Source: Candidatus Saccharimonadota bacterium
Lineage (GTDB): Bacteria; Patescibacteriota; Saccharimonadia; Saccharimonadales; JAGQNJ01
Direction of reading: 5' to 3'
Assembly: GCA_020428405.1 (NCBI GenBank)
Contig: JAGQMZ010000001.1
Location: 1 to 41,415 of the forward strand
Length of the DNA: 41,415 nt
Under the pieces are notes generated by a model. The model was not told the origin of the DNA. It saw only the letters and a list, made by a program, of their open reading frames with translations, and did not search any database. This document shows, in pieces, positions 1-26,699 of the stretch; positions within the stretch are counted from its first letter, which is position 1, and each line of letters begins with the position of its first letter. The position numbers were made by a program, and so were the translations under genes.

Positions 1-3000
1 TATTAGGCTGGCTGGTAGCCAGAACCAAGGACTAGATAGGACACTGAGTGGTCTTCTGTTCTTGAGGATGTTGATGTTGGCTTGTTGTTTGCCGGAGAGT
101 GATTGGCCTTCTTCTAGTAGTTCACTTGCATGGGTAGTTAGTTGTTTGACGATACCTTGGGTGGAGTGAATTAGTTCTATAGGGATAGTTAGAGTACTGC
201 TAGCTACGGCTAGGGCTTTGGTGGTGGTGCTGGTACTAGAGCTAGCTGTGGTACTAGTACTACTACCAGTACTGTTAGCTGAGGTGGCAGCTAGGAGTTC
301 TAGACTAGATTGCATCTTAGTTAGTGGGGTCTTGATGTAGTGGGAGGTTAGTTGGAGATAGATGGCTCTAGCTTCTAGGGAAGCTTTAAAGCGTTTGGTT
401 AGTTGTTCAAAGGCTAGACGGCGTTGGTTCTCTTTGTGAGTAGAGTAGGTCATGAGGGCAGCTATAGCTAGTAGTAGAGCTAGGATAGACCAAGGGATGT
501 ATTTGGTGAGTGGGGATGGTGGACGGTCAGTGTCAGTTGGTTGTAAGACTTCACCTAGGGTTTCAACTAGACTTAGGGGTTGAGCTGTAGGGTCTACTGT
601 ATCTCCATTACTTTCTGCTGTAGATGGGGTTGGTGTACTGGAACTATTACCAGAGGAGTTAGTTGAGCCTGGGGTAGTTGTACCTGGAGTGGTGGGATCG
701 TTGGTTGGTGTATTAGGGTCTGTGACACCTGGGGGGTCTACTGGTATACCATTGCCGCCAGGGGGATCATCTTCTGGGGGTTCTTCGGGATCAACTGAAG
801 AGCCAACAAAAGTCGGGTAGGTTGTAGCTTCTGTTTTCCATATAGAATCAAAGTCCCATTGATCTAGAGGAGCATTGGCGGTGTTATTGATGAAGTAGTT
901 GGGATTGGAGCCGTCGGGGTTTACAGAACTACAACCGCTAATCTGCGGAGATTGAATGAATTCAAACTCTGGCTGCACAGCAACGCCTTGTGCATTAGAC
1001 ACAGTGGCAACACTTGCATTAGCTAATGTACTGCAGTATTGGTTGCTTGTTCTAAACTCATCAAAATACGAGTTTTGAACAGAATATTCACCTGCAATAT
1101 GTATTTCCTGGTCGGGTGATGCACTGCCCTGTCTACCCCACTGACTAATAAATTCACCGTTACTATCTAGTTTCTGCACATTATTAGATACATTAGTACC
1201 GCCTAATTGGGTGGTATTGCCTAAAATCAATAAATCATTCCCGAGTGTTGTTATGCTAACGGTGTCAGCAAAATCTCCCTCTCCTTCACTATCAAAACCA
1301 AACTGTGATATATAGTTTCCATCTGTATCAAATTGCTGAACACGTGGGGTGTTATTGTTTTCGATAACGTATACATTATCATTGAATATACCTATTGATG
1401 TCGGGTAATTAAATTGACCCGTGGTATCACCCCATTTCGTGATGTAATCTCCATTTGAGTCAAATTTTTGTACTCGGTTATTATAGCTATCTACTACATA
1501 AACATTGTTCTGCAAGTCAACCGCAATACCTTGTGGTAAGCTAAACTCACCATCTTCACTGCCTGATGACCCCCATTTGGTAATAAAGTTACCGTTACTG
1601 TCAAACTTCTGGATGCGACTATTGTTTGTATCTGAGACATACATATTGTCAGATGAATCAATTGCTATAGCTCTAGGAGAATTAAACTGTCCATCACCAC
1701 TGCCGACAGAACCCTCCTGACAGCCTGAGGTGCAGATTTGAAATTCGTTACTACCGTCATCTACGCCCCAACCATAAGTCATCAGGAAATTACCGTTACT
1801 ATCAAACTTTTGGATGCGACGATTATCAATTTCGGAAACATAAATATTGCCAGAAGAGTCCTGGGCAATTCCGTTAGGATTAGATAATTCCCCTTCACCA
1901 CTACCCCAAGTACCAAACTGCATTAAGTATGTCCCGCTACTATCAAATTTTTGTATGCGGTGATTAGCCGAATCGGCAACGTATGAGTTATTATTTGAAT
2001 CGGCAACAATACCATACGGATAGTCGAACTCTCCATTATTAGAGCCTCTAGTACCCCACCTGGAAATAAAGTTACCGCTACTATCAAATTTTTGTATGCG
2101 GTGATTAGCCGAATAATTTTCATTGTGTTCTGGGATTAATATGTCTCCATTAGAATTAAAAGTTATGGATTGTGGTTTGCTGAATAAGCGAGAGGATTCC
2201 CATACTTGCAAGAAGTTTCCACCGCTATCAAACTTTTGAATGCGGTTATTATATCTATCAACTACATAAACATTACCTTGGCTATCAATAGTTAGACCAT
2301 GTGGATACCATAATTCACCGTTCCCACCGCCCTGACTACCCCACATTGTTATTAATGTACCGCCACTATTAAATTTCTGAATGCGGTGGTTATCCATGTC
2401 TGATACATAAATATTGTCACTAGAGTCTATAGCAATATATACAGGTTTTTCAAACTCATTTTCTTCACTGCCCTGGCTACCCCACGAAGTAATAAATACT
2501 CCATTTGAATCGAATTTCTGGATACGGAAGTTATCTGTATCAGCTACATATACATTATTATTTGAATCTATGGCAATATCACTTGCATTGTTAAATTGCT
2601 CTGTAAGCTGACCATAGCTACCCCACTCGGTAACAAATACTCCGTTTGAGTCAAACTTTTGGATACGGTTGTTGTATTTATCTGTAACATATACATAGCC
2701 TTGTGAATCGATGGCTACCCCACTTGGTGTTTTGAATTGGCCCTGTTCTTCTCCAGTAGATCCCCATTTTGCTATAAAATCACCTTCACTATCAAATTTT
2801 TGGATTCTATTATTACCGCCGTCAGCAACGTAGATATTACCATTAATATCAGTGGCTATTTTTGTAGCCGCACTAAACAAACCGTTTGTGGTAGAGAAAT
2901 AATCAAATACATAATCTGGTGATATGCCTACAACCGCACCTTCTACTCCACTTGCTGACACCTCCCCAGCCACAAAAGTATTTTCTATTTTATAAGCATC

Positions 3001-6000
3001 TGGGTCAGTACTTTCAAGTTCTGTATTTACGCCGATACCAATCAGTCCGCCAGCAGTACCCTTAAAGATATCTCCAGCAAATGTTGATACCCTACTGAAT
3101 AGTAAATCTCTTTGTTCTGATGTATGTCCTGGTATTTCAAGACCCTCCATTAGTGTGTATATCATGTCGCCTATATCTATATCACTTTCTTCTTGTGATG
3201 TGGCTACATTACCAGACACATAGGAATTTAATATGCTTGAATTAACGCCAACGCCAATTAACCCACCAGCAATACCATTAAATGATACCTCTGGGTTTTC
3301 AATCTCTGGGTCAATTTCAATACCATATTCTTCTTGTAAGTTCTCCAACTCTGAGCTTGGAATTTGAACGCTTATTGATTTTGTTGAAACATTACCTGCT
3401 ACATATGAATTGGCAATATTTATAACTCCAGGCTGCACTATACTGTTGTACGATTCAGCCGATAAATCATACAAACCAAGGATAGAATCAAAGTCTATGT
3501 CTATACCAACACTAGCTCCAAACATACCAGATGCAATCAATGGAGAGCTAACGTCACCGGTTACTAGTGTTTTTGATACATTAGCATCACCTGCAGCCAT
3601 TACTCCAACCAAGCCCCCTGTAACTCCCATAGAAAAACCTTCAGTTGGTATAGGTCCAGATTCACCAGGAGAAAAATCTATGCTCGCTACATCTATATCA
3701 CCCGTTACTTCAACTTCGTTGATATTTACTTCGCCACCAAAACCTGCACCTGCAATACCTCCAGCCAAGGACATTCCCCGTAAAGAGCTAATGCTTCCAC
3801 TAAATGAAACATCGTCAGCAACTAGTGAACTGTTAGCGAATGCACCCGCAATGCCTCCGGATATATTTAATAATGAGTCATTGACAGTTATGTCACCAGA
3901 ATACTCCGAATCATATAACGCAACTAAATTACCGAACTCTAATTGATTCTCAATAGCTAAAAATCCTGTTGTGGTACCAATTATTCCTCCTACAGCCGTT
4001 GCAGTGGTTTGGGTAGAGCTTACATTTATGTCCACATCAGATTCTAGCCCATCACCTATAAATTCATCAGTATTTGCAAATCCCACCATACCGCCAGCAG
4101 TATTATAAACTCTCTGTGATGATTCTAAATTTATACTTCCATTAGTATATGAATTTGTTATATGCATGTAATTCTCAATGGTTAATTGAGCACCAACTAA
4201 TCCACCAAGTGCACTTAACCCAACCTCATCTGAGTCATCCAAGCTATATTCATCAGTAATATTTACCGTAGCATTGGAGCCATCAATTTCAACCCCTGTT
4301 CCTGTAGCACCTACTAAGCCACCTCCTACAGATATTGGGGTATTACAATTTAAATTTAGGTTTGCACTTGAGTTAGATATTTCCATAGGTGGCCCGCTTG
4401 CTACTCCAACTAGGCCACCAACAACAAAACACCCTGTTAAACTTACATTTGCCGTCGAATCACTAATTATATATGCAGGAGCGTCAGCTATTTGATAAGG
4501 AAATCCACCAATGCCATCAATCCCAAGTACGGGTATATCATTTAAATACTCTCCATCAATAATAGTCATGCCAACAATTCCTCCACTAAAAGGCAGTTCG
4601 GCTCCACCCGCACCTGCATCAAAAACTCCATTAAATTCAGTATTAATAACTTGTGTATTATTTAAGTTATAGTTTTCCCCACCATCAAATTGCGAAACAT
4701 AATCAAGACTATCATTAAACACTTTCAATACATTTCTGTCTGTACTATCAAGTATCTGAACCCCTGAACTCAATACATTTATATTTGATGCATGATCTAA
4801 TCTGATTAATGGAACAGAATCTAATATGTCGCCTGTGCTACTAAACTTCATTAAGGCACTAGAGTAATCCTCTGAGTAGCTATTGTTATGAGCTCCAACT
4901 AATATCGTATTATCCGATAAAACACTAATAGTTTGGTGATCGCTCTGCACCGTGAATGATCTTACAAATTGGCCACTACTATCAAAGATTTTTACCTTAC
5001 CTTGATCCAAAATATATAGGTTATTACTGCTATCAAAACCAGCTTTTGTAAAATAGCTCTGGTCTACATATGAAAAAAGTTGTTGTTCACCACTGGCGTT
5101 ACCTACAGTGTAAATATATGTGCCATCAGAAGTAAATTTTTGCACCCTTTTATAATTTGTATATGCTACGTCATCTCCATACACATATACACTGTTAGAA
5201 TTATCTATATAAATGTCTTCAGCACCAGAAAGTTGATTATCTTCATAGCCTTCGGCACCCCATTGTGTTATGTAGTTACCACTAGACCCAAATTTTTGAA
5301 CACGGTTATTGCCACCGTCAAGAACATAAAGATTATTAGACGAATCTAGTGCAATACGCAGACTATAAGAGTTAAACTGAGAATTTCCATCACCAGATCC
5401 ATTTAGGGCACTTATACCTGGCCCATCACCACCAATTTTCAGTAAAAACTCCCCATTAGAATTAAATTTTTGGATTCGGCTATTATATGAATCGGTAACG
5501 TAAATATTATTTTGTGAATCTATGACAATTTGCTGATTATTACTATCAGTGTCAAATTTGCCATCTTGTTGATAGTATTCTGGGTCTTGGCTGCCTGTTT
5601 CAATATTTCCCCAATAGTCAACTAGCGCACCCTGGCTATTAAACTTTTGCACTTTTTGCTGACCAGCAACATATGTGTTGCCAAAATTATCAACCTCTAC
5701 ACTTGTAGCGTTAAAAGTACCTAAGCCCTGGTCTCCTACATAGCCAACACCCACAATTCCACCAATACCATTGACCTGACCAGAGTATGAACTATTCATT
5801 ATTCGGATGTTACCAGTAGAGTTTGTTGCACCCACTAAACCACCGCCAGGTTGAGCATTTTCGCCAGTAGACTCAACAGTTATATCTGAATGAACATTAT
5901 CTATTACAGAATCTTCACCAACTAGAGCCGCAACACTGCCTGGTGTTTCTCCGCTAACTGAACCACCAGATAAATTTACATTTTTTATAACTCCTCCGTT

Positions 6001-9000
6001 TAAATGCCCTACAAATCCTGCAAGCTCATCATCGTTTTCCGGTCGTTCAACAAATATATCTGTAATCGTATGGCCATTACCATCAAACGTACCCCTAAAA
6101 GAATTTTCTTGATCTAATTGTCCAAGTGGCAACCAGCCTTCTCCGTCGTTCCAAGCAGTAGTATCGCTACAATCAATATCTTGAACTAATACAACGTTAC
6201 CAAATGGTAACGTAATTTGATCTGTTCCTAAAAACTCAAAACCATCCAGATCATCCGGCAGGGTATACATACTCATTGCAAACTGTAAATCATTACAATC
6301 ATTTGCTGTGATACCTAATTTCAAAGTGGCTGTCTCTGTATAGTCTCCAATACCTGATGCATTTTCTGCAGCCATTCTGAATTCATATTCTTTACCAAAA
6401 TAAATATCCCTAAAGATAATCATCATAGCATCCGCAATAGCTTGCTGTTCCTCCGGAGTTAAACTTTCAATATCGGTTGATATATATTCATCAATACCTA
6501 AAGTTATAAATTGGTTAACTGCTTGCGCATCATTTACCTCAATGCTTTCCCACGACCCTACACCAACTTTTCGGTATTCAATAATATAATTCGTTATCGG
6601 CGCTCCTACGTTTGGTGCAGTCCAAGTTAGATTTGGTAATGCAATATATCCATTTATTGTTTCGTCGTTAATTTCTAAATCTACTTCATAGGCTCCGTGT
6701 TCCACCTCAAAATCATTTGGTGCTGACGGTACACTTGGCATTTCAAAATTTTGAATACCCGCTTCTGAACTCTGCCCAAAAACATTAATGGCGAAAACCC
6801 TGAAATCGTACACCTCACTTGACTCAAGTCCTTCAATAGTGGCATTTGTTTGTGAGCTAACACCGTCTTCAAATGCAGTCCAAGTTCCTGTACTGGATAA
6901 CTTATACTCAACTCGATAGTCAATTATCTCTGCTCCGCCAATAGATAGAGGTTCATTCCAATCAAGATCTACACTTGTAATAGTTTGCGTCGTTGCTGTA
7001 AAATTATTAGGCTCCAATGGTTTTGAAAGATTTGTAATAGTAGAGTGTTCACCTTGCCCAACCGCGTTCATAGCAGCAACACGAACATCGTAAGCGTTTT
7101 CGTTAAAGTCCAGGCCTGTTACTGTGGCAGTTGTGTCTACGCTGACCTCACCACTAAGGATGGTCCAGTTTTCTTCACTACTTAATTTGTATTCAATTAC
7201 ATAATCTGTGATTTCAGAAAATCCATCGAATGGTTCGTCCCATTCGATACCAACTGATGACTCACTACCACTACTTACCGCAAGATTTGACGGCGCACTA
7301 GGCACAATTGGCTCAGGTGGTTCATCACCTAAGAATGTTGGGGGTGTTTCACCGTTAATTCTCCATATTTCCGTAAAATCCCATTGGTCTAACGGAGGGT
7401 TTGCTTGATTAGCAAAAAAGTATTGGCCATCATTGCCATCTGTATTAATAGCTGTACAAGTTATGCCAGCTGGAGTTGATAAAATTGAGTTGTCATTACC
7501 ATTAATAAACCCGCCCAAACACTCAGGCTGACCAGTTGTAGTCTGATCGTAATAATTATTAGTTATTGTAATTTCATTCGGGTTATCTGGCACTGTCATG
7601 ACTCCACCTAAAATGCCCCCCGGCGAAACTAAGCCACCCGCAGATATTGAAACATTACCGATTGCGAATGAATTTGTAATTGCAGAGTCTACCTCTGCCT
7701 GAACCATACCAACTAGAGATCCAGCAAGCATAACTGGAGTAGGAGAGTTAGTTATTGCAACACTACCTGTGGAGTATGATTTATCAACTGTACCGCCATA
7801 CAATATACCAACAACTCCTCCAGCACCGACATATTCATCACCGGCTCCGCCAGTTAGATCAACGCTTACATCTCCTGTAGCAAACGTATCTGAAATTGAA
7901 CCTCCTCCATAGCCCACTATTCCTCCTGCTGCCACCAATCCCCCGCTAGTTGAATATGTCACGTTTATGCTCGTATTACTACTTGACTCAGTAATTATTA
8001 CAGCCGGTTCCGCCATCCCAACTAAGCCACCTGCAACAGCCTGTGAACTAGCAATACTAATATTAAGCTGTGTATTTTCTATATGTACATTATTAATAAC
8101 GCTGTTCCCCATGGCCATTCCTGCCAAACTACCTCCAACAATAGAAGACAATGAGCTATCTGCAAGTGTTAAATTAGAAATTTCAGCACCATTTAGCCCC
8201 CCAAATAGTCCAGCAGCTAACCCACCGAATGATATAAAGTCTTGATGTAAGTTTGAAATCGTATGGCCTTGACCATCAAGCGTACCCGTAAAACCATCAC
8301 CTCCACCCATATCCATAATAGATATGAAACCATATGGCTCTGCACTAGGAGGTAGCATGCCATCCCAAGTCCAGCCCGCACTAGCAGAACAATCAATGTC
8401 ATTGCTTAATGCATAGTCGGCTGTGGTGTCACCTGGAGTAAAGGTTGTGGGGTTAATCATAATACCTTGTAGCTCTTCACAGCTTGTTATTGGTGTTGCG
8501 CCGCTCGGAGTTGATGTTTGTGAGTTAACTATGCTCGACCACTCACTCAATGCAATACCTTGAGATCTAATTTTGAAGTCATATTGCATATCCGGTTCTA
8601 AGTTTTGTATGGTTGTATTTGAATTAAAAATTGTACCATATAAATTATCTATGTGATTAATCCATGATTGATCTTCAGATTTTTTATATTGCACAAAATA
8701 TTCAGTTGCACCTGTTACATCTTCCCAGTCTAAAGTAATTGATGTTGCTCCAGGGCTTGCATTAATACTTTGGGGTGGACTAATAGTCCAGCTACAATCA
8801 GCTGTTGTAAATGTATTGTCATCTCCGTAAGTAGTTCCGCTACTATTTGTTGCATATGTTCTGAAATGATAGGTTGCTTCACAGGTTAACCCAGATATGT
8901 CTTGCCTAATTGCCGGTGAATACACTTCTATTTGATTTAATCCTACATTCGCTCTATATAAATCACCCTGATAAAAATCAAAGCTACTTTGATAACCATT

Positions 9001-10872
9001 ACGTGTCTTTATTCGCTCCATATAAACTAATTCACCTGAAGAATTTAGCTTGTGGAGATCAGTGTAATCATCTGCGTAACCTCCTTCAAAAATTAAATTA
9101 TCATTATTGTCTATAGCAATTGATCGGGCACTATTAAAAATTTCATCATCTGGGTAATTATCTGCTACAAATTCATCAATAAAATTACCATTAAGATCAA
9201 ACTTTTGAATGCGATCATTGCCTTGGTCTAATATATAAACATTATTCTGACTATCAATTGCAATAGGTGAGTCTGAATAGAACATAAATTCACCTTGACC
9301 ACTTCCTTGCGTTCCTTGTTTTGAAACAAAATTACCATCGCTATCAAAAACTTGAACTCTATATAGATTAGGATCCATAACGTATATGTAATCGTTTCCG
9401 TTAATGTCAAAATCTCCCAAACTTTCAAACTGACCATCACCGTTTCCGTAAGATCCAAATTCGGAAATATAAGTTCCATCAGAATCAAACTTCTCTATCT
9501 TATAACCAGTTACACTAACGTATACGTTATCTTCACTATCTACTTGCAGTTTTTGCGGGTTAAATAAATGCTCGCTTGAATAATCTTCCACTGAGTCCCA
9601 AACATCAACTAAATTATTATTGGAATCAAATTTCTTTATGTTTCCATCAACAATATATTTGTTCCCTGCTGAGTCGATAGCTATATCGCGAAGAGAAGTA
9701 AAATCATTGTCACTTACTTGATTCGTAATTCCATATAACTGTGCACCGCTAGAGTCATACTTCCTAACTTTTTCTACTTCATACCCAGATGATGCAATAA
9801 TATTATTACTTCCGTCTACATCGACGGAATTTATTCCATAACTTGTTACGACTTCACTAATAAAATTACCATTGAAATCAAATTTTTGTATGTTATTTCT
9901 ACTCTCATCAGCTACATAAACATTGTTAAAGCTATCGACATATACATCTGCTGGATAGTAAAATTCTCCGTCATTTTCACCATAGGTCCCCCACTTTGTA
10001 ATAAAACTACCAGATGTGTCGAATTTTTGGATACGTTCGTTGCCACTATCAGCAACGTAAATATACCCACTACCGTCGACCGCTATTCCGCTTGCGCCCG
10101 AGAACTGACCATCACCAGAGCCACTTGAGCCCCATTTAGTTATAAAATTACCTGAGGAGTCAAATTTTTTTACCTCATACTGTATACCTCTATCAATCAC
10201 ATAAATATCACCGCTGTTATTATCAATGGCAATGGCTCGAGGTGCCTGCAGCCTACTATTACTTAACCCTATCGAAACAAGCTTAGCTAGAAAATTACCG
10301 TTGTTATCAAACTTGAATAGGCCGGCATTTTCATCTATTACCAATGCGTTATCATCCGCATCAACTGCAACACCATTAGGAGTTTTCAATTTACCTGGGT
10401 GTTCAGCTTGTCCCCATTGAGTTATATAATTTCCACTGGAGTCAAACTTAACAATATGCGCATTGTCTTCATCTGCCACAAAAATGTTACCACTTGAATC
10501 CGTCGCAACATCCGCAGGCCTATTAAGTTTACCGTTTGCCGAACCATTGTTCCCAATATAATGATTAAAATTATAGCCCTGTAAGTCATTCAAACTTGCT
10601 TGCGTAGACGAACCATAATTTGTATCGGTACCGTATTCAAAGCCAATGTCAGAGATATTCTCACCGTTTGCCGAGCCGTTTAATGTTACTGAATCAACAG
10701 AAATACTAGTTGCATCTAGTGTTGTTGCATCCGGTGGCTGTTCGCCTTCACCAAGTATAAAAGAACCAACGTATGCTAATGCAGGTAACGTCATTAATAA
10801 AATGAATGTATAGAAGACTAACCAGAATACAGGTGGCATTCTGGAAATTTGCTTCCTCATATCCTCGTCCAT
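1..10872 (-). CDS. Giant NHL/Fn3/GLUG-repeat envelope protein with C-terminal TM and HisKA-like segment (partial, 3' end outside window)
   Basis: The frame was read codon by codon from ATG 10872 to base 1 with no stop, giving at least 3,624 residues. An in-frame ATG at 10860 is an alternative start. Approximate order: hydrophobic signal/anchor 14-37 with an ALA cleavage-like site at 33; first half of an Ig/Fn3-like domain 46-91; about 11 NHL repeats 105-620; second half of that domain 653-695; Fn3 703-783; GLUG-type repeats 795-1181; three Fn3 1188-1518; GLUG 1525-1711; about six NHL 1720-2041; GLUG 2061-2648; about 12 NHL 2665-3245; GLUG-like tail 3265-3352; Pro/Thr/Ser linker 3357-3453; TM 3458-3475; H-box-like SHYIKTPLT with His3511; start of another hydrophobic segment at the edge. 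NHL blades read FDSxGN, then GIAVD, then NIYVAD. NHL, Fn3 and GLUG modules are common in surface proteins, so I infer a cell-surface binding or adhesion protein with a cytoplasmic signalling-like tail. Ligand and function are unknown. Confidence 0.9.
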   Translation of the reverse strand, partial: MDEDMRKQISRMPPVFWLVFYTFILLMTLPALAYVGSFILGEGEQPPDATTLDATSISVDSVTLNGSANGENISDIGFEYGTDTNYGSSTQASLNDLQGYNFNHYIGNNGSANGKLNRPADVATDSSGNIFVADEDNAHIVKFDSSGNYITQWGQAEHPGKLKTPNGVAVDADDNALVIDENAGLFKFDNNGNFLAKLVSIGLSNSRLQAPRAIAIDNNSGDIYVIDRGIQYEVKKFDSSGNFITKWGSSGSGDGQFSGASGIAVDGSGYIYVADSGNERIQKFDTSGSFITKWGTYGENDGEFYYPADVYVDSFNNVYVADESRNNIQKFDFNGNFISEVVTSYGINSVDVDGSNNIIASSGYEVEKVRKYDSSGAQLYGITNQVSDNDFTSLRDIAIDSAGNKYIVDGNIKKFDSNNNLVDVWDSVEDYSSEHLFNPQKLQVDSEDNVYVSVTGYKIEKFDSDGTYISEFGSYGNGDGQFESLGDFDINGNDYIYVMDPNLYRVQVFDSDGNFVSKQGTQGSGQGEFMFYSDSPIAIDSQNNVYILDQGNDRIQKFDLNGNFIDEFVADNYPDDEIFNSARSIAIDNNDNLIFEGGYADDYTDLHKLNSSGELVYMERIKTRNGYQSSFDFYQGDLYRANVGLNQIEVYSPAIRQDISGLTCEATYHFRTYATNSSGTTYGDDNTFTTADCSWTISPPQSINASPGATSITLDWEDVTGATEYFVQYKKSEDQSWINHIDNLYGTIFNSNTTIQNLEPDMQYDFKIRSQGIALSEWSSIVNSQTSTPSGATPITSCEELQGIMINPTTFTPGDTTADYALSNDIDCSASAGWTWDGMLPPSAEPYGFISIMDMGGGDGFTGTLDGQGHTISNLHQDFISFGGLAAGLFGGLNGAEISNLTLADSSLSSIVGGSLAGMAMGNSVINNVHIENTQLNISIASSQAVAGGLVGMAEPAVIITESSSNTSINVTYSTSGGLVAAGGIVGYGGGSISDTFATGDVSVDLTGGAGDEYVGAGGVVGILYGGTVDKSYSTGSVAITNSPTPVMLAGSLVGMVQAEVDSAITNSFAIGNVSISAGGLVSPGGILGGVMTVPDNPNEITITNNYYDQTTTGQPECLGGFINGNDNSILSTPAGITCTAINTDGNDGQYFFANQANPPLDQWDFTEIWRINGETPPTFLGDEPPEPIVPSAPSNLAVSSGSESSVGIEWDEPFDGFSEITDYVIEYKLSSEENWTILSGEVSVDTTATVTGLDFNENAYDVRVAAMNAVGQGEHSTITNLSKPLEPNNFTATTQTITSVDLDWNEPLSIGGAEIIDYRVEYKLSSTGTWTAFEDGVSSQTNATIEGLESSEVYDFRVFAINVFGQSSEAGIQNFEMPSVPSAPNDFEVEHGAYEVDLEINDETINGYIALPNLTWTAPNVGAPITNYIIEYRKVGVGSWESIEVNDAQAVNQFITLGIDEYISTDIESLTPEEQQAIADAMMIIFRDIYFGKEYEFRMAAENASGIGDYTETATLKLGITANDCNDLQFAMSMYTLPDDLDGFEFLGTDQITLPFGNVVLVQDIDCSDTTAWNDGEGWLPLGQLDQENSFRGTFDGNGHTITDIFVERPENDDELAGFVGHLNGGVIKNVNLSGGSVSGETPGSVAALVGEDSVIDNVHSDITVESTGENAQPGGGLVGATNSTGNIRIMNSSYSGQVNGIGGIVGVGYVGDQGLGTFNATSVEVDNFGNTYVAGQQKVQKFNSQGALVDYWGNIETGSQDPEYYQQDGKFDTDSNNQQIVIDSQNNIYVTDSYNSRIQKFNSNGEFLLKIGGDGPGISALNGSGDGNSQFNSYSLRIALDSSNNLYVLDGGNNRVQKFGSSGNYITQWGAEGYEDNQLSGAEDIYIDNSNSVYVYGDDVAYTNYKRVQKFTSDGTYIYTVGNASGEQQLFSYVDQSYFTKAGFDSSNNLYILDQGKVKIFDSSGQFVRSFTVQSDHQTISVLSDNTILVGAHNNSYSEDYSSALMKFSSTGDILDSVPLIRLDHASNINVLSSGVQILDSTDRNVLKVFNDSLDYVSQFDGGENYNLNNTQVINTEFNGVFDAGAGGAELPFSGGIVGMTIIDGEYLNDIPVLGIDGIGGFPYQIADAPAYIISDSTANVSLTGCFVVGGLVGVASGPPMEISNSSANLNLNCNTPISVGGGLVGATGTGVEIDGSNATVNITDEYSLDDSDEVGLSALGGLVGAQLTIENYMHITNSYTNGSINLESSQRVYNTAGGMVGFANTDEFIGDGLESDVDINVSSTQTTATAVGGIIGTTTGFLAIENQLEFGNLVALYDSEYSGDITVNDSLLNISGGIAGAFANSSLVADDVSFSGSISSLRGMSLAGGIAGAGFGGEVNINEVEVTGDIDVASIDFSPGESGPIPTEGFSMGVTGGLVGVMAAGDANVSKTLVTGDVSSPLIASGMFGASVGIDIDFDSILGLYDLSAESYNSIVQPGVINIANSYVAGNVSTKSISVQIPSSELENLQEEYGIEIDPEIENPEVSFNGIAGGLIGVGVNSSILNSYVSGNVATSQEESDIDIGDMIYTLMEGLEIPGHTSEQRDLLFSRVSTFAGDIFKGTAGGLIGIGVNTELESTDPDAYKIENTFVAGEVSASGVEGAVVGISPDYVFDYFSTTNGLFSAATKIATDINGNIYVADGGNNRIQKFDSEGDFIAKWGSTGEEQGQFKTPSGVAIDSQGYVYVTDKYNNRIQKFDSNGVFVTEWGSYGQLTEQFNNASDIAIDSNNNVYVADTDNFRIQKFDSNGVFITSWGSQGSEENEFEKPVYIAIDSSDNIYVSDMDNHRIQKFNSGGTLITMWGSQGGGNGELWYPHGLTIDSQGNVYVVDRYNNRIQKFDSGGNFLQVWESSRLFSKPQSITFNSNGDILIPEHNENYSANHRIQKFDSSGNFISRWGTRGSNNGEFDYPYGIVADSNNNSYVADSANHRIQKFDSSGTYLMQFGTWGSGEGELSNPNGIAQDSSGNIYVSEIDNRRIQKFDSNGNFLMTYGWGVDDGSNEFQICTSGCQEGSVGSGDGQFNSPRAIAIDSSDNMYVSDTNNSRIQKFDSNGNFITKWGSSGSEDGEFSLPQGIAVDLQNNVYVVDSYNNRVQKFDSNGDYITKWGDTTGQFNYPTSIGIFNDNVYVIENNNTPRVQQFDTDGNYISQFGFDSEGEGDFADTVSITTLGNDLLILGNTTQLGGTNVSNNVQKLDSNGEFISQWGRQGSASPDQEIHIAGEYSVQNSYFDEFRTSNQYCSTLANASVATVSNAQGVAVQPEFEFIQSPQISGCSSVNPDGSNPNYFINNTANAPLDQWDFDSIWKTEATTYPTFVGSSVDPEEPPEDDPPGGNGIPVDPPGVTDPNTPTNDPTTPGTTTPGSTNSSGNSSSTPTPSTAESNGDTVDPTAQPLSLVETLGEVLQPTDTDRPPSPLTKYIPWSILALLLAIAALMTYSTHKENQRRLAFEQLTKRFKASLEARAIYLQLTSHYIKTPLTKMQSSLELLAATSANSTGSSTSTTASSSTSTTTKALAVASSTLTIPIELIHSTQGIVKQLTTHASELLEEGQSLSGKQQANINILKNRRPLSVLSSPWFWLPASLI

Positions 10873-11936: not shown

Positions 11937-12197
11937 CTAATGTTTATCAAAAAACAATGAGATTCTGTATTTAAATAGCGGTATTGTAACGACTTTTACG
12001 TGATGAATATATGTATAACGAACATTCGGGTCAATTTGCTTTAGCGGTTCTTTGTGCCGTTTAAAATCAAGGCGAGTATACATAGCCAATGACCCAACAA
12101 CAAAAGCTACTATTATAGCCGTAATTAAAATTACACCCCCAGAAACAGAATCAGATTGGTTTTGATTAGACTGAGCAATAATGTTCAGAAATTTCAT
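11937..12197 (-). CDS. Small single-pass membrane protein, unknown function
   Basis: 86 residues. One strong TM helix (about 20-42, SGGVILITAIIVAFVVGSLA) is followed by a basic cytoplasmic-type tail rich in Lys, Arg, His and Tyr (FKRHKEPLKQ, then TYIHHVKVV). No recognised domain. The start is supported by a TAGAAT box 9 nt upstream, matching the short-leader pattern elsewhere in the window. It is the first of three consecutive small membrane genes leading into the giant surface-protein gene. The coding call rests on the coherent TM topology and fit to the gene spacing. Confidence 0.65.
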   Translation of the reverse strand: MKFLNIIAQSNQNQSDSVSGGVILITAIIVAFVVGSLAMYTRLDFKRHKEPLKQIDPNVRYTYIHHVKVVTIPLFKYRISLFFDKH

Positions 12198-17837: not shown

Positions 17838-18521
17838 TTACGTAGTAAATCTAATCTGTTGCGTTAATATTTTATCTAGCAATGGTAAAGTCTCGTGAAC
17901 TCCTTTGATTATGTGGATTCTTTGTGGCGACTCATGCATTAACAACTTTAATGTTTTGATATGGTTTGCATCAAAATCACCTTTGCTATTTTCTGAAAAC
18001 GTAGACTCCTGATAATCGTATTGATAGCTCTTATCTAACTCGAAACTTTTTTTGCCTGCAGGTTTTTCAATATTTGGGCTGTGGCCCTCTAGTTGTGTTA
18101 AACGAGCCATAAACCAGCATTTTATAAGTAAGCTATCTATATCTTTATCGTTTAAATATGTTAATGCCTGTAATAATAATCTGTAATGGTCATGGTCAGA
18201 AGACTCTTTTGTAGTGCTACTTAAGTGTTTTAAAATATCGTAGCCAATCATTGTTCTGTCAACGTCGGTAGCAATATTATGAAAATGTGTTTGCAGCCGC
18301 GTAGAAACTAATGTTGAAATATCTCCCCTACCTTTAATAAACGAGATACTGCTAACACTAAAAAGCTCTATGCCACCAGCAAGCTTACTTTTAATCTTGC
18401 GAACACCCCTTGCCATAAGTTTAAGGTTGCCGTTATCGGGGGTTATGGCGGTGATTATTTTATCTGACTCACCAAAATTTATTCTAGATAGAACAATTGC
18501 CGATGTTGTTAATTTATTCAT
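17838..18521 (-). CDS. recO: DNA repair protein RecO
   Basis: 227 residues. The N-terminal OB-fold is clear: SAIVLSRINFGESDKIITAITPDNGNLKLMARGVRKIKSKLAGGIELF matches the RecO signature of a switch-like start, GE-D-K, and a basic loop with G-L. The C-terminal part is helical. RecO loads RecA on SSB-coated DNA together with RecR. The four cysteines that form the zinc finger in many RecO proteins are missing; only one Cys is present (KCWFMARL). The ATG overlaps the TGA of the receiver-like gene (ATGA), so the three genes 19614-17838 form one translationally coupled unit. Length is close to normal. Confidence 0.9.
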   Translation of the reverse strand: MNKLTTSAIVLSRINFGESDKIITAITPDNGNLKLMARGVRKIKSKLAGGIELFSVSSISFIKGRGDISTLVSTRLQTHFHNIATDVDRTMIGYDILKHLSSTTKESSDHDHYRLLLQALTYLNDKDIDSLLIKCWFMARLTQLEGHSPNIEKPAGKKSFELDKSYQYDYQESTFSENSKGDFDANHIKTLKLLMHESPQRIHIIKGVHETLPLLDKILTQQIRFTT

Positions 18522-18919
18522 GCTCTAACTAGGTTTAATTTTTCAAGTTCTACAAGTAACTTTTTTGGTGTTGTTTGAGGTTTATATAGATAGGAGTAGA
18601 TTGATAACTGGTTAAATTGTTCTTCGCTTAAAGATAAATCGTCTTTGCTTAGATAAGAGTTTATAACAACTGGCACATCTTTACTGTCGCTATACGATTG
18701 TAGATCATAAAGAATATCTATTCCATTGTGAAGCGGTAAAAGCATCTCAATAACTATTAAATCCGGCAGCTTATGTGCTAATTCTTCTAGTGTTTCTTCG
18801 GCAGAAAAACAAAACTTAATATCAAATTTTTGTTTAAGTGCTCTTTTATATGATTTACATAAATTTTGATCTGGCTCCACTATAATTAGCTTTGGTTTTT
18901 TTAATGATAAATTGCTCAT
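18518..18919 (-). CDS. Degenerate response-regulator receiver domain (phospho-Asp replaced by Glu)
   Basis: 133 residues, a single REC fold. The beta1 strand KLIIVEPDQN keeps the acidic pocket (E15, D17). The beta3 strand is PDLIVIEMLLPLHNGIDIL, where the phospho-acceptor Asp is Glu58. The beta4 end is VVINSYLS, replacing the usual Thr/Ser-Ala, and the conserved Lys is kept in YLYKPQT. Asp-to-Glu at this site often mimics the phosphorylated state, so it may be locked on or act as a phosphorylation-independent scaffold. No output domain. Coupled by 4-bp overlaps to a kinase-like gene upstream and to recO downstream. Confidence 0.85.
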   Translation of the reverse strand: MSNLSLKKPKLIIVEPDQNLCKSYKRALKQKFDIKFCFSAEETLEELAHKLPDLIVIEMLLPLHNGIDILYDLQSYSDSKDVPVVINSYLSKDDLSLSEEQFNQLSIYSYLYKPQTTPKKLLVELEKLNLVRA

Positions 18920-19614
18920 ATGAATGACAATTGCCTACTCGGTATTAGTGAAATTTCAAATCCACTGTGGTTATTTTGCTTGGTCACCGCCAGGGAAGAA
19001 CCTAATAGTCTAGCAAATACATCGGCTATAACAACACCAGAACTTGTACCAAAAGAAAAACTAGAAGACAAAACACTAGCCCTGCCAGATAATTTCTTAA
19101 TCATATTTAAATCACTTGCCCTAAGATCAGAATTTGATAATATACCCGCCTTGATTTGATCTTTAGTATTTTTAGCTAAAAAACGCACCACCCTATCATC
19201 ATTAATTAAGTTGTTTGTTATACAGCTGTAACCCAAAGAGCCAAGTAGTGAGGATAAAACTTTTCTGTCCGATAAAACTACTAGAGATTTTCTTGGAATC
19301 GAATTCTGAAAGTCAAAACCCCTTCTTTTAGCAAAAGAATATAAACTATGGGCTACTTCATCAAATACAGGTCTTAATGATACTGGTTCAATATTTAGAG
19401 ATTGCTGGCCACTAGCTACTTTAACGCTCAAAATATAAGCATCAATTAAGTTAGTTGCCGACATTGCGATTTTTTGTACATATTCCTTATCATCAGCTTG
19501 ATATATGATATGCGACAATGGAACCTTTAAGTCCTCTGCTAAATTTCTAAGCAAACCAAACTGATCATCAGCTACCACATTTTCAATACTAGCTTTCTGG
19601 CCAGCTACCCTCAT
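18916..19614 (-). CDS. Degenerate histidine-kinase-like protein (no catalytic His)
   Basis: 232 residues without TM segments. The N-terminal helix FGLLRNLAEDLKVPLSHI aligns with a HisKA H-box (SHELRTPLxxI), but the phospho-accepting His is Glu27. The C-terminal half follows a HATPase_c outline: KVLSSLLGSLGYSCI is where the N-box should be, with Ser instead of the key Asn residues. SFGTSSGVVIADVFARLLG resembles the G2 box and following helix, and FEISLIP is the last strand. ATP binding and phosphotransfer are therefore unlikely. It probably works by protein contact with the receiver encoded by the next gene (4-bp overlap). The family assignment is from visible pattern only. Confidence 0.7.
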   Translation of the reverse strand: MRVAGQKASIENVVADDQFGLLRNLAEDLKVPLSHIIYQADDKEYVQKIAMSATNLIDAYILSVKVASGQQSLNIEPVSLRPVFDEVAHSLYSFAKRRGFDFQNSIPRKSLVVLSDRKVLSSLLGSLGYSCITNNLINDDRVVRFLAKNTKDQIKAGILSNSDLRASDLNMIKKLSGRASVLSSSFSFGTSSGVVIADVFARLLGSSLAVTKQNNHSGFEISLIPSRQLSFI

Positions 19615-26303: not shown

Positions 26304-26699
26304 CTAGTCGTGAATGCCTAAGTGATGCTTTATACGTTCTATCACATCGGCAATTACTACCTGAGATTTTACCAAGTAATCATCTGCACCTAATTGATCT
26401 GCCCTGGCCTTATCAGTATCTTGACTAAGTGCTGTTAGCATTACTACTTTAAGATTTGCTGTTTCAGGGGTATTTCTGAGTATATCTAGCACGTCAAAGC
26501 CACTTACTTTCGGCATCATGACATCTAAAATTACTAAGTCTGGCTTAAACTCTACAGCCGCGGCAAGCGCGTCTTCACCGTTAGGTACTCGTCTAACCTC
26601 AAAACCTTCAACTTGTAACCTTGAGGTATAAACACTTGCTAGACTATCGTCATCTTCTACTAATAATATTTTCTTTGTTTGTTTATCGTTGGTTTCCAT
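26304..26699 (-). CDS. Stand-alone response-regulator receiver protein
   Basis: 131 residues, a complete CheY-like receiver with nothing attached. The acidic pocket VEDDDS (E15-D17), phospho-acceptor Asp59 in DLVILDVMMPKVSGFD, Thr89 in VVMLTALS and Lys111 in ADDYLVKSQ are all present, so it should be phosphorylated normally. Its C-terminal helix ends with IERIKHHLG. No cognate histidine kinase lies next to it. Possible partners are elsewhere in the genome or, speculatively, the HisKA-like tail of the giant protein. Contrast the degenerate receiver at 18518-18919. Confidence 0.93.
   Translation of the reverse strand: METNDKQTKKILLVEDDDSLASVYTSRLQVEGFEVRRVPNGEDALAAAVEFKPDLVILDVMMPKVSGFDVLDILRNTPETANLKVVMLTALSQDTDKARADQLGADDYLVKSQVVIADVIERIKHHLGIHD

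Follow-up and report, generated by a model that had tools for sequence, protein, structure and literature searches.

The best overall explanation for P0001, an open reading frame at the end of a contig from a Saccharibacteria-type genome, is that it encodes the first 3,624 residues of a giant histidine kinase that spans the membrane, and we consider this reading probable. Most likely, the protein is an adhesin-like contact sensor that signals through orphan receivers. Its architecture is well supported; its ligand, the phosphotransfer route and its own catalytic half are inferred. The frame lies in the window, the whole stretch of 41,415 nucleotides that was analysed (G000:C16:1-41415). As the initial annotation had stated, it is free of stops on the minus strand from the ATG at 10872 to window base 1, and with 26% it indeed fills about a quarter of the window. 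Base composition predicts around 253 stops over this frame and none was observed, hence a chance origin is excluded. Codon-position composition is coding-like over the entire length. The frame runs off the window only because contig C16 (83,017 bp) ends at window base 1, a contig end that the initial annotation had missed, and the missing sequence is therefore the C-terminal (3') part. The cut falls within the second C-terminal transmembrane (TM) helix. The metagenome-assembled genome (MAG) comprises 810,707 bp in 104 contigs and is 92% complete, for which the label "minimal-genome" is fair.

A nested ectodomain on a probable kinase tail

P0001 carries the export or anchor and repeat-module features of an adhesin-like giant: an N-terminal hydrophobic segment, NHL, Fn3 and GLUG. 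The parts are as follows.

1..10872, minus strand: P0001 open frame, 3,624 aa, cut by the contig end (frame check, contig limits)
10747..10836, minus strand: N-terminal hydrophobic segment, signal anchor or signal peptide, aa 13-42 (hydropathy segment aa 12-42; common to the C35 paralogue)
10597..10731, minus strand: Ig/Fn3-like domain, first half, aa 48-92 (joined-flank match to L043, E 3e-16)
8917..10575, minus strand: NHL array 1, aa ~100-652, ~12 blades, within the Ig/Fn3-like domain (Pfam, joined flanks)
8788..8907, minus strand: Ig/Fn3-like domain, second half, aa 656-695 (joined-flank match)
8524..8775, minus strand: Fn3 domain, aa 700-783 (Pfam; limits from sequence reading)
7327..8490, minus strand: GLUG solenoid 1 and end cap, aa 795-1182 (sequence motifs)
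6298..7305, minus strand: three more Fn3 domains, aa 1190-1525 (Pfam, comparison with relatives)
5719..6285, minus strand: GLUG solenoid 2, first part, aa 1530-1718 (sequence reading)
4687..5715, minus strand: NHL propeller 2, aa ~1720-2062, between GLUG repeats (Pfam; model; Foldseek)
2887..4665, minus strand: GLUG solenoid 2, middle part, aa 2070-2662 (sequence reading)
1123..2874, minus strand: NHL array 3, aa ~2667-3250, ~12 blades, ahead of the GLUG end cap (Pfam, sequence)
799..1101, minus strand: GLUG end cap, aa 3258-3358 (motif WDFDSIW)
508..798, minus strand: Pro/Thr/Ser-rich stalk, aa 3359-3455 (sequence)
439..504, minus strand: TM1, aa 3457-3478 (hydropathy segment aa 3455-3477; alignment A1)
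49..438, minus strand: DHp1, aa 3479-3608, H-box SHYIKTP, with an inserted Ser/Thr-rich loop (HisKA E 0.004; profile A4 E 6e-17)
340-342, minus strand: codon of the H-box His, aa 3511 (within DHp1)
1..36, minus strand: first residues of TM2, SPWFWLPASLI, truncated at the contig edge (alignment with TM2 of relatives)

The mix of NHL, GLUG and Fn3 noted initially is borne out: Pfam finds NHL in 16 stretches (E 1e-112) as well as fn3 (E 6.6e-37), whereas GLUG, which Pfam does not report for P0001, was recognized by sequence reading, both as repeats and as end caps. The description as a giant surface repeat protein of a CPR genome also stands with respect to modules and membrane tail, but it had missed that the propellers are nested in other domains. 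The NHL propellers of P0001 are inserted inside Ig-like and GLUG modules and do not lie side by side with them. The two pieces that flank array 1 (aa 45-96, aa 654-700), once joined, align end to end with three uninterrupted Ig-like copies in L043 (44, 41 and 35% identity, E 3e-16 to 4e-15). Joined, the flanks correspond to a domain that is uninterrupted in a relative, and array 1 is therefore inserted in one Ig-like domain. Other Ig-like copies in the same L043 giant are preceded by NHL-like sequence. Arrays 2 and 3 lie between GLUG repeats, with a similar order in G087 and G080 (L037, L042). The second NHL part was modelled as a propeller with pLDDT mostly 75-92, and its top Foldseek matches are NHL propellers (E 3e-18); in the GLUG flanks around it pLDDT is mostly below 50. 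NHL repeats above the search threshold occur in this genome on contigs C16 and C35 only, that is, in giants. A mobile-element origin of the insertions was considered, however most copies are too diverged at the DNA level (65-80%) for recent movement.

Behind TM1, P0001 carries the H-box sequence LTSHYIKTPLT. The Pfam HisKA match to the tail is weak on its own (E 0.004), and the family profile A4, built from the tails without the ATPase domain, matches over TM1 and DHp1 with E 6e-17. Alignment with the G044 kinase gives 33% identity over the tail. TM1, DHp1 with its H-box and the start of TM2 about 80-110 residues further on (A1, A4) are all present, which places P0001 in a split-DHp kinase family of Saccharibacteria that is defined here. 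Both the membrane tail and the cytoplasmic extension described in the initial annotation exist, but a histidine kinase begins in this extension, so that the term "surface or host attachment protein" covers the outer half only. A Ser/Thr kinase domain of the PknD type had no Pfam match in the 3,624 residues or in the HisKA-like tail. Judging from the relatives, the missing 3' part very probably encodes TM2/TM3, DHp2 and HATPase_c. A search for it in the same genome gave a single match, a fragment on C35 that begins at the contig edge and holds the end of a CA domain (C35:3-239); a link from C16 across a gap to C35 is only a suggestion. Since the intracellular part of the relatives is a histidine kinase, P0001 probably senses outside and signals inward, and does not merely stick.

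Layout and spread of the split-DHp family

A common layout was found in 38 of 38 relatives: ectodomain, TM1, a DHp with H-box, a two-helix membrane hairpin and a second DHp without the His, followed by a HATPase_c-type domain wherever the contig extends that far. Alignment A1 (16 rows) shows no variation at the H, T and P of the H-box, nor do the residues of the N-box, G1, F and G2 vary among the 15 complete tails. HATPase_c is detected in every one of these 15, and HisKA in 12 of 16. Between H-box and DHp2, every one of the 38 members has two hydrophobic segments (weakest peak 1.38; both above 1.4 in 37), compared with at most 0.99 in the four ordinary kinases of this genome. In 26 of the 38, DHp2 follows the His at a distance of 152-154 residues. 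By sequence reading, the H-box His is kept in 37 members, and no member has a His at the homologous position of DHp2. Of 36 members, 31 have an intact ATPase G1 box; the other five (G193, G279, G341, G126, G687) combine a degenerate G1 box with a kept His, and hence some members may be pseudokinases or phosphotransfer proteins. These cases also hint that DHp1 may be served by the ATPase of another protein. Profile comparison with the ordinary HisKA domains of this genome gave 97.5% for DHp1 and 89% for DHp2. A recent tandem duplication of the two is not claimed, because their mutual match is weak (15%) and each matches ordinary HisKA separately. An AlphaFold model of a relative (7-row alignment, mean pLDDT 72.7, pTM 0.52, thus of moderate confidence) shows the helix order TM1-DHp1-TM2-TM3-DHp2-CA, and its top Foldseek match is HK853 (E 2.6e-12). 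The standard arrangement of a His-bearing DHp directly before the CA domain is not seen in the relatives, where the TM hairpin and the His-less DHp2 lie between. Judged by its motifs, the protein should work as a histidine kinase, with a different layout; it is a variant and not a new kind of molecule. The open-licence literature yielded no description of the family, or of a kinase in which membrane helices lie between phospho-acceptor and catalytic core.

Sensor kinases of the HisKA/HATPase_c type (Thermotoga HK853, WalK/YycG, CpxA) have the H-box and the N, G1, F and G2 boxes in common with the family, and DHp2 plus CA align with HK853 and CpxA as one contiguous core. In contrast to this type, the His-bearing DHp of the family is separate, upstream and cut off by the TM hairpin, the canonical DHp position lacks the His, and the ectodomain exceeds the usual size by far. 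In pseudo-histidine kinases such as DivL, a DHp without the usual His likewise precedes the ATPase domain; DivL, however, is not known to carry an additional DHp with a His. DivL is among the Foldseek structural matches of the relative's model; the pseudo-histidine kinase concept has been described (PMC4211667). PknD of Mycobacterium tuberculosis resembles P0001 in having an NHL propeller outside, one membrane helix and a kinase inside, and its extracellular domain (PDB 1rwi) is among the Foldseek matches of the P0001 NHL part. PknD, however, is a Ser/Thr kinase with one propeller, whereas in P0001 a histidine kinase carries several propellers, each placed within Ig-like or GLUG modules. The hybrid two-component systems of Bacteroides also place a propeller ectodomain on a membrane histidine kinase. 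They differ in their propeller family, in the fused receiver and AraC output, and in a length of about 1,400 aa, and they are not known to have a split DHp. Giant adhesin-like proteins, for example of Apilactobacillus, are similar to P0001 in that several thousand residues are displayed on the surface of a small-genome bacterium; in contrast to P0001, the abstract of that report mentions no kinase (PMC12863079).

Among the 393 genomes sampled from the order, about 28 encode a member of the family, full-length in 26 and partial in this genome and G070 (counted by hand). Its spread is patchy, over about nine families of the order, and members occur in a few other Patescibacteria (G414, G516, G536; G687 is of the same class). 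Short matches confined to model positions ~26-112 in the scans of order and phylum resemble ordinary HisKA domains and were left out of these counts. The named relatives from a tighter-alignment search are Candidatus Saccharibacteria, from which Saccharimonadales is the probable order; the P0001 tail as query against named genomes gave no match. Complete members range from 549 to 6,773 aa, and their ectodomains vary (NHL/GLUG/Fn3, DUF285/Fn3, RCC1/TIG, Big_7, DUF11). The kinase is thus what the members have in common, and the ectodomain is what differs between them. The largest member, from G193 (L137-L138, G193:C2, ORF 2950-23268), has a degenerate G1 box and a kept H-box, and its sequence reads as RCC1-like repeats inside IPT/TIG-like modules. 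The ectodomain of the family kinase L044 (G044:C4, 3301-9987) matches a Mycoplasma DUF285 repeat (E 2e-121).

The genome studied here holds at least two giants. The CA-domain end lies at one edge of C35; at its opposite edge a second giant starts, whose N-terminal part is interrupted by the contig end within an exact NHL repeat of 77 bp. C40 carries a central portion of a giant that extends as far as TM1. On C35, a gene that is sortase-like by eye (L061, G000:C35, 2139-2834) separates the two pieces of giant kinases. A short membrane-proximal motif like HHVKVVTIPxxKYR recurs in otherwise unrelated predicted surface proteins (window 11937-12197, minus strand; L036 1036-3105; N-terminus of L142).

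Receivers and a possible signalling route

Five receivers were found in this genome, of which three adjoin ordinary kinases and two are orphans, both on C16. The window contains two stand-alone receivers:

26304..26699, minus strand: stand-alone receiver of a response regulator, 131 aa, with an intact phospho-Asp motif (by elimination a possible partner)
18518..18919, minus strand: stand-alone receiver of 133 aa, degenerate, with Glu in place of the phospho-Asp (residue read from sequence)

Directly beside the degenerate receiver, a 232-aa protein (18916-19614, minus strand) without a Pfam match reads as a soluble degenerate histidine kinase core with EDLKVPL at the H-box position. In ten further genomes that encode family members there are 5 to 10 receivers each, mostly as short frames of stand-alone size. 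At the loci examined, no response regulator adjoins a family kinase, with the exception of G059, where a stand-alone receiver lies directly upstream of the family kinase (L045, G059:C4, 2966-8344 and 9044-9421) and the H-box His is changed to Asn.

A signalling route can be proposed from this layout. Outside, a chain of Fn3/Ig-like and GLUG modules with inserted NHL propellers stands on the Pro/Thr-rich stalk. Inside, there would be a three-helix membrane kinase, with the acceptor His on DHp1 between TM1 and the TM2/TM3 hairpin and the ATPase domain after the second, His-less DHp. Ligand binding or tension at the ectodomain, most likely at contact with a partner or host cell, would shift TM1 and DHp1 against the catalytic core. 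The core would then phosphorylate the DHp1 His, perhaps across the dimer, and the phosphoryl group would pass to an orphan receiver such as that at 26304-26699. That the DHp1 His is phosphorylated by its own polypeptide is more likely than not. Host or partner contact as the stimulus is a guess that we make tentatively, and an attachment role of P0001 is plausible.

Rival readings and the biology of small genomes

The ectodomain might instead bind soluble glycans or peptides, as a nutrient or quorum-type sensor whose size gives valency and not reach; this would keep the kinase reading and change the stimulus. Beta-propeller kinase ectodomains that sense soluble molecules are indeed known from the Bacteroides hybrid systems, and the modules differ strongly among paralogues (NHL, GLUG, DUF285, RCC1/TIG), but with 2,000 to 6,700 residues of extended modules, predominantly of adhesin type, the family far exceeds known soluble-ligand sensors, and we regard this possibility as rather unlikely. 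Quite improbable is a mainly structural adhesin, in which a giant ectodomain gluing the epibiont to host or surface suffices and the kinase tail is a vestigial membrane anchor. GLUG, Fn3 and NHL are common in adhesins and several giant relatives have a degenerate G1 box (G193, G279, G341), however the invariant H, T and P, the nearly universal His, ATPase boxes that are intact in most giants and the constant hairpin and spacing would be needless for a mere anchor. That the length is an assembly artefact joining the repeat arrays of several genes in frame is highly improbable: the assembly does break at repeats, as on C35, among its many contigs, and continuity of P0001 across repeats rests on the MAG assembly, but the frame is stop-free throughout, its internal repeats are diverged (longest exact match reported 40 bp), the first 150 window bases are unique in the genome, and relatives of several families show similar module orders, with single frames as long as 6,773 aa.

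The favoured reading is a histidine kinase that may read contact. Extended to the family, it would describe a new histidine kinase class with a patchy spread in Saccharibacteria and in some further Patescibacteria. Here, a core of His-less DHp and ATPase domain would phosphorylate the His of a separate DHp across the hairpin, driven by giant, propeller-studded, contact-reading ectodomains; we put this forward as a speculative proposal. A phospho-acceptor set apart from the catalytic core by membrane helices would be a new build of histidine kinase. The organism probably lives on other microbes, and surface giants wired to a kinase are concrete candidates for contact sensors by which Patescibacteria may recognize host cells and respond to them. 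Adhesins and pili of Patescibacteria have been described, and the terms histidine kinase and two-component are absent from the main text of both reports (PMC10633639, PMC12206443). Giant "adhesins" of small genomes should be read to the last residue.
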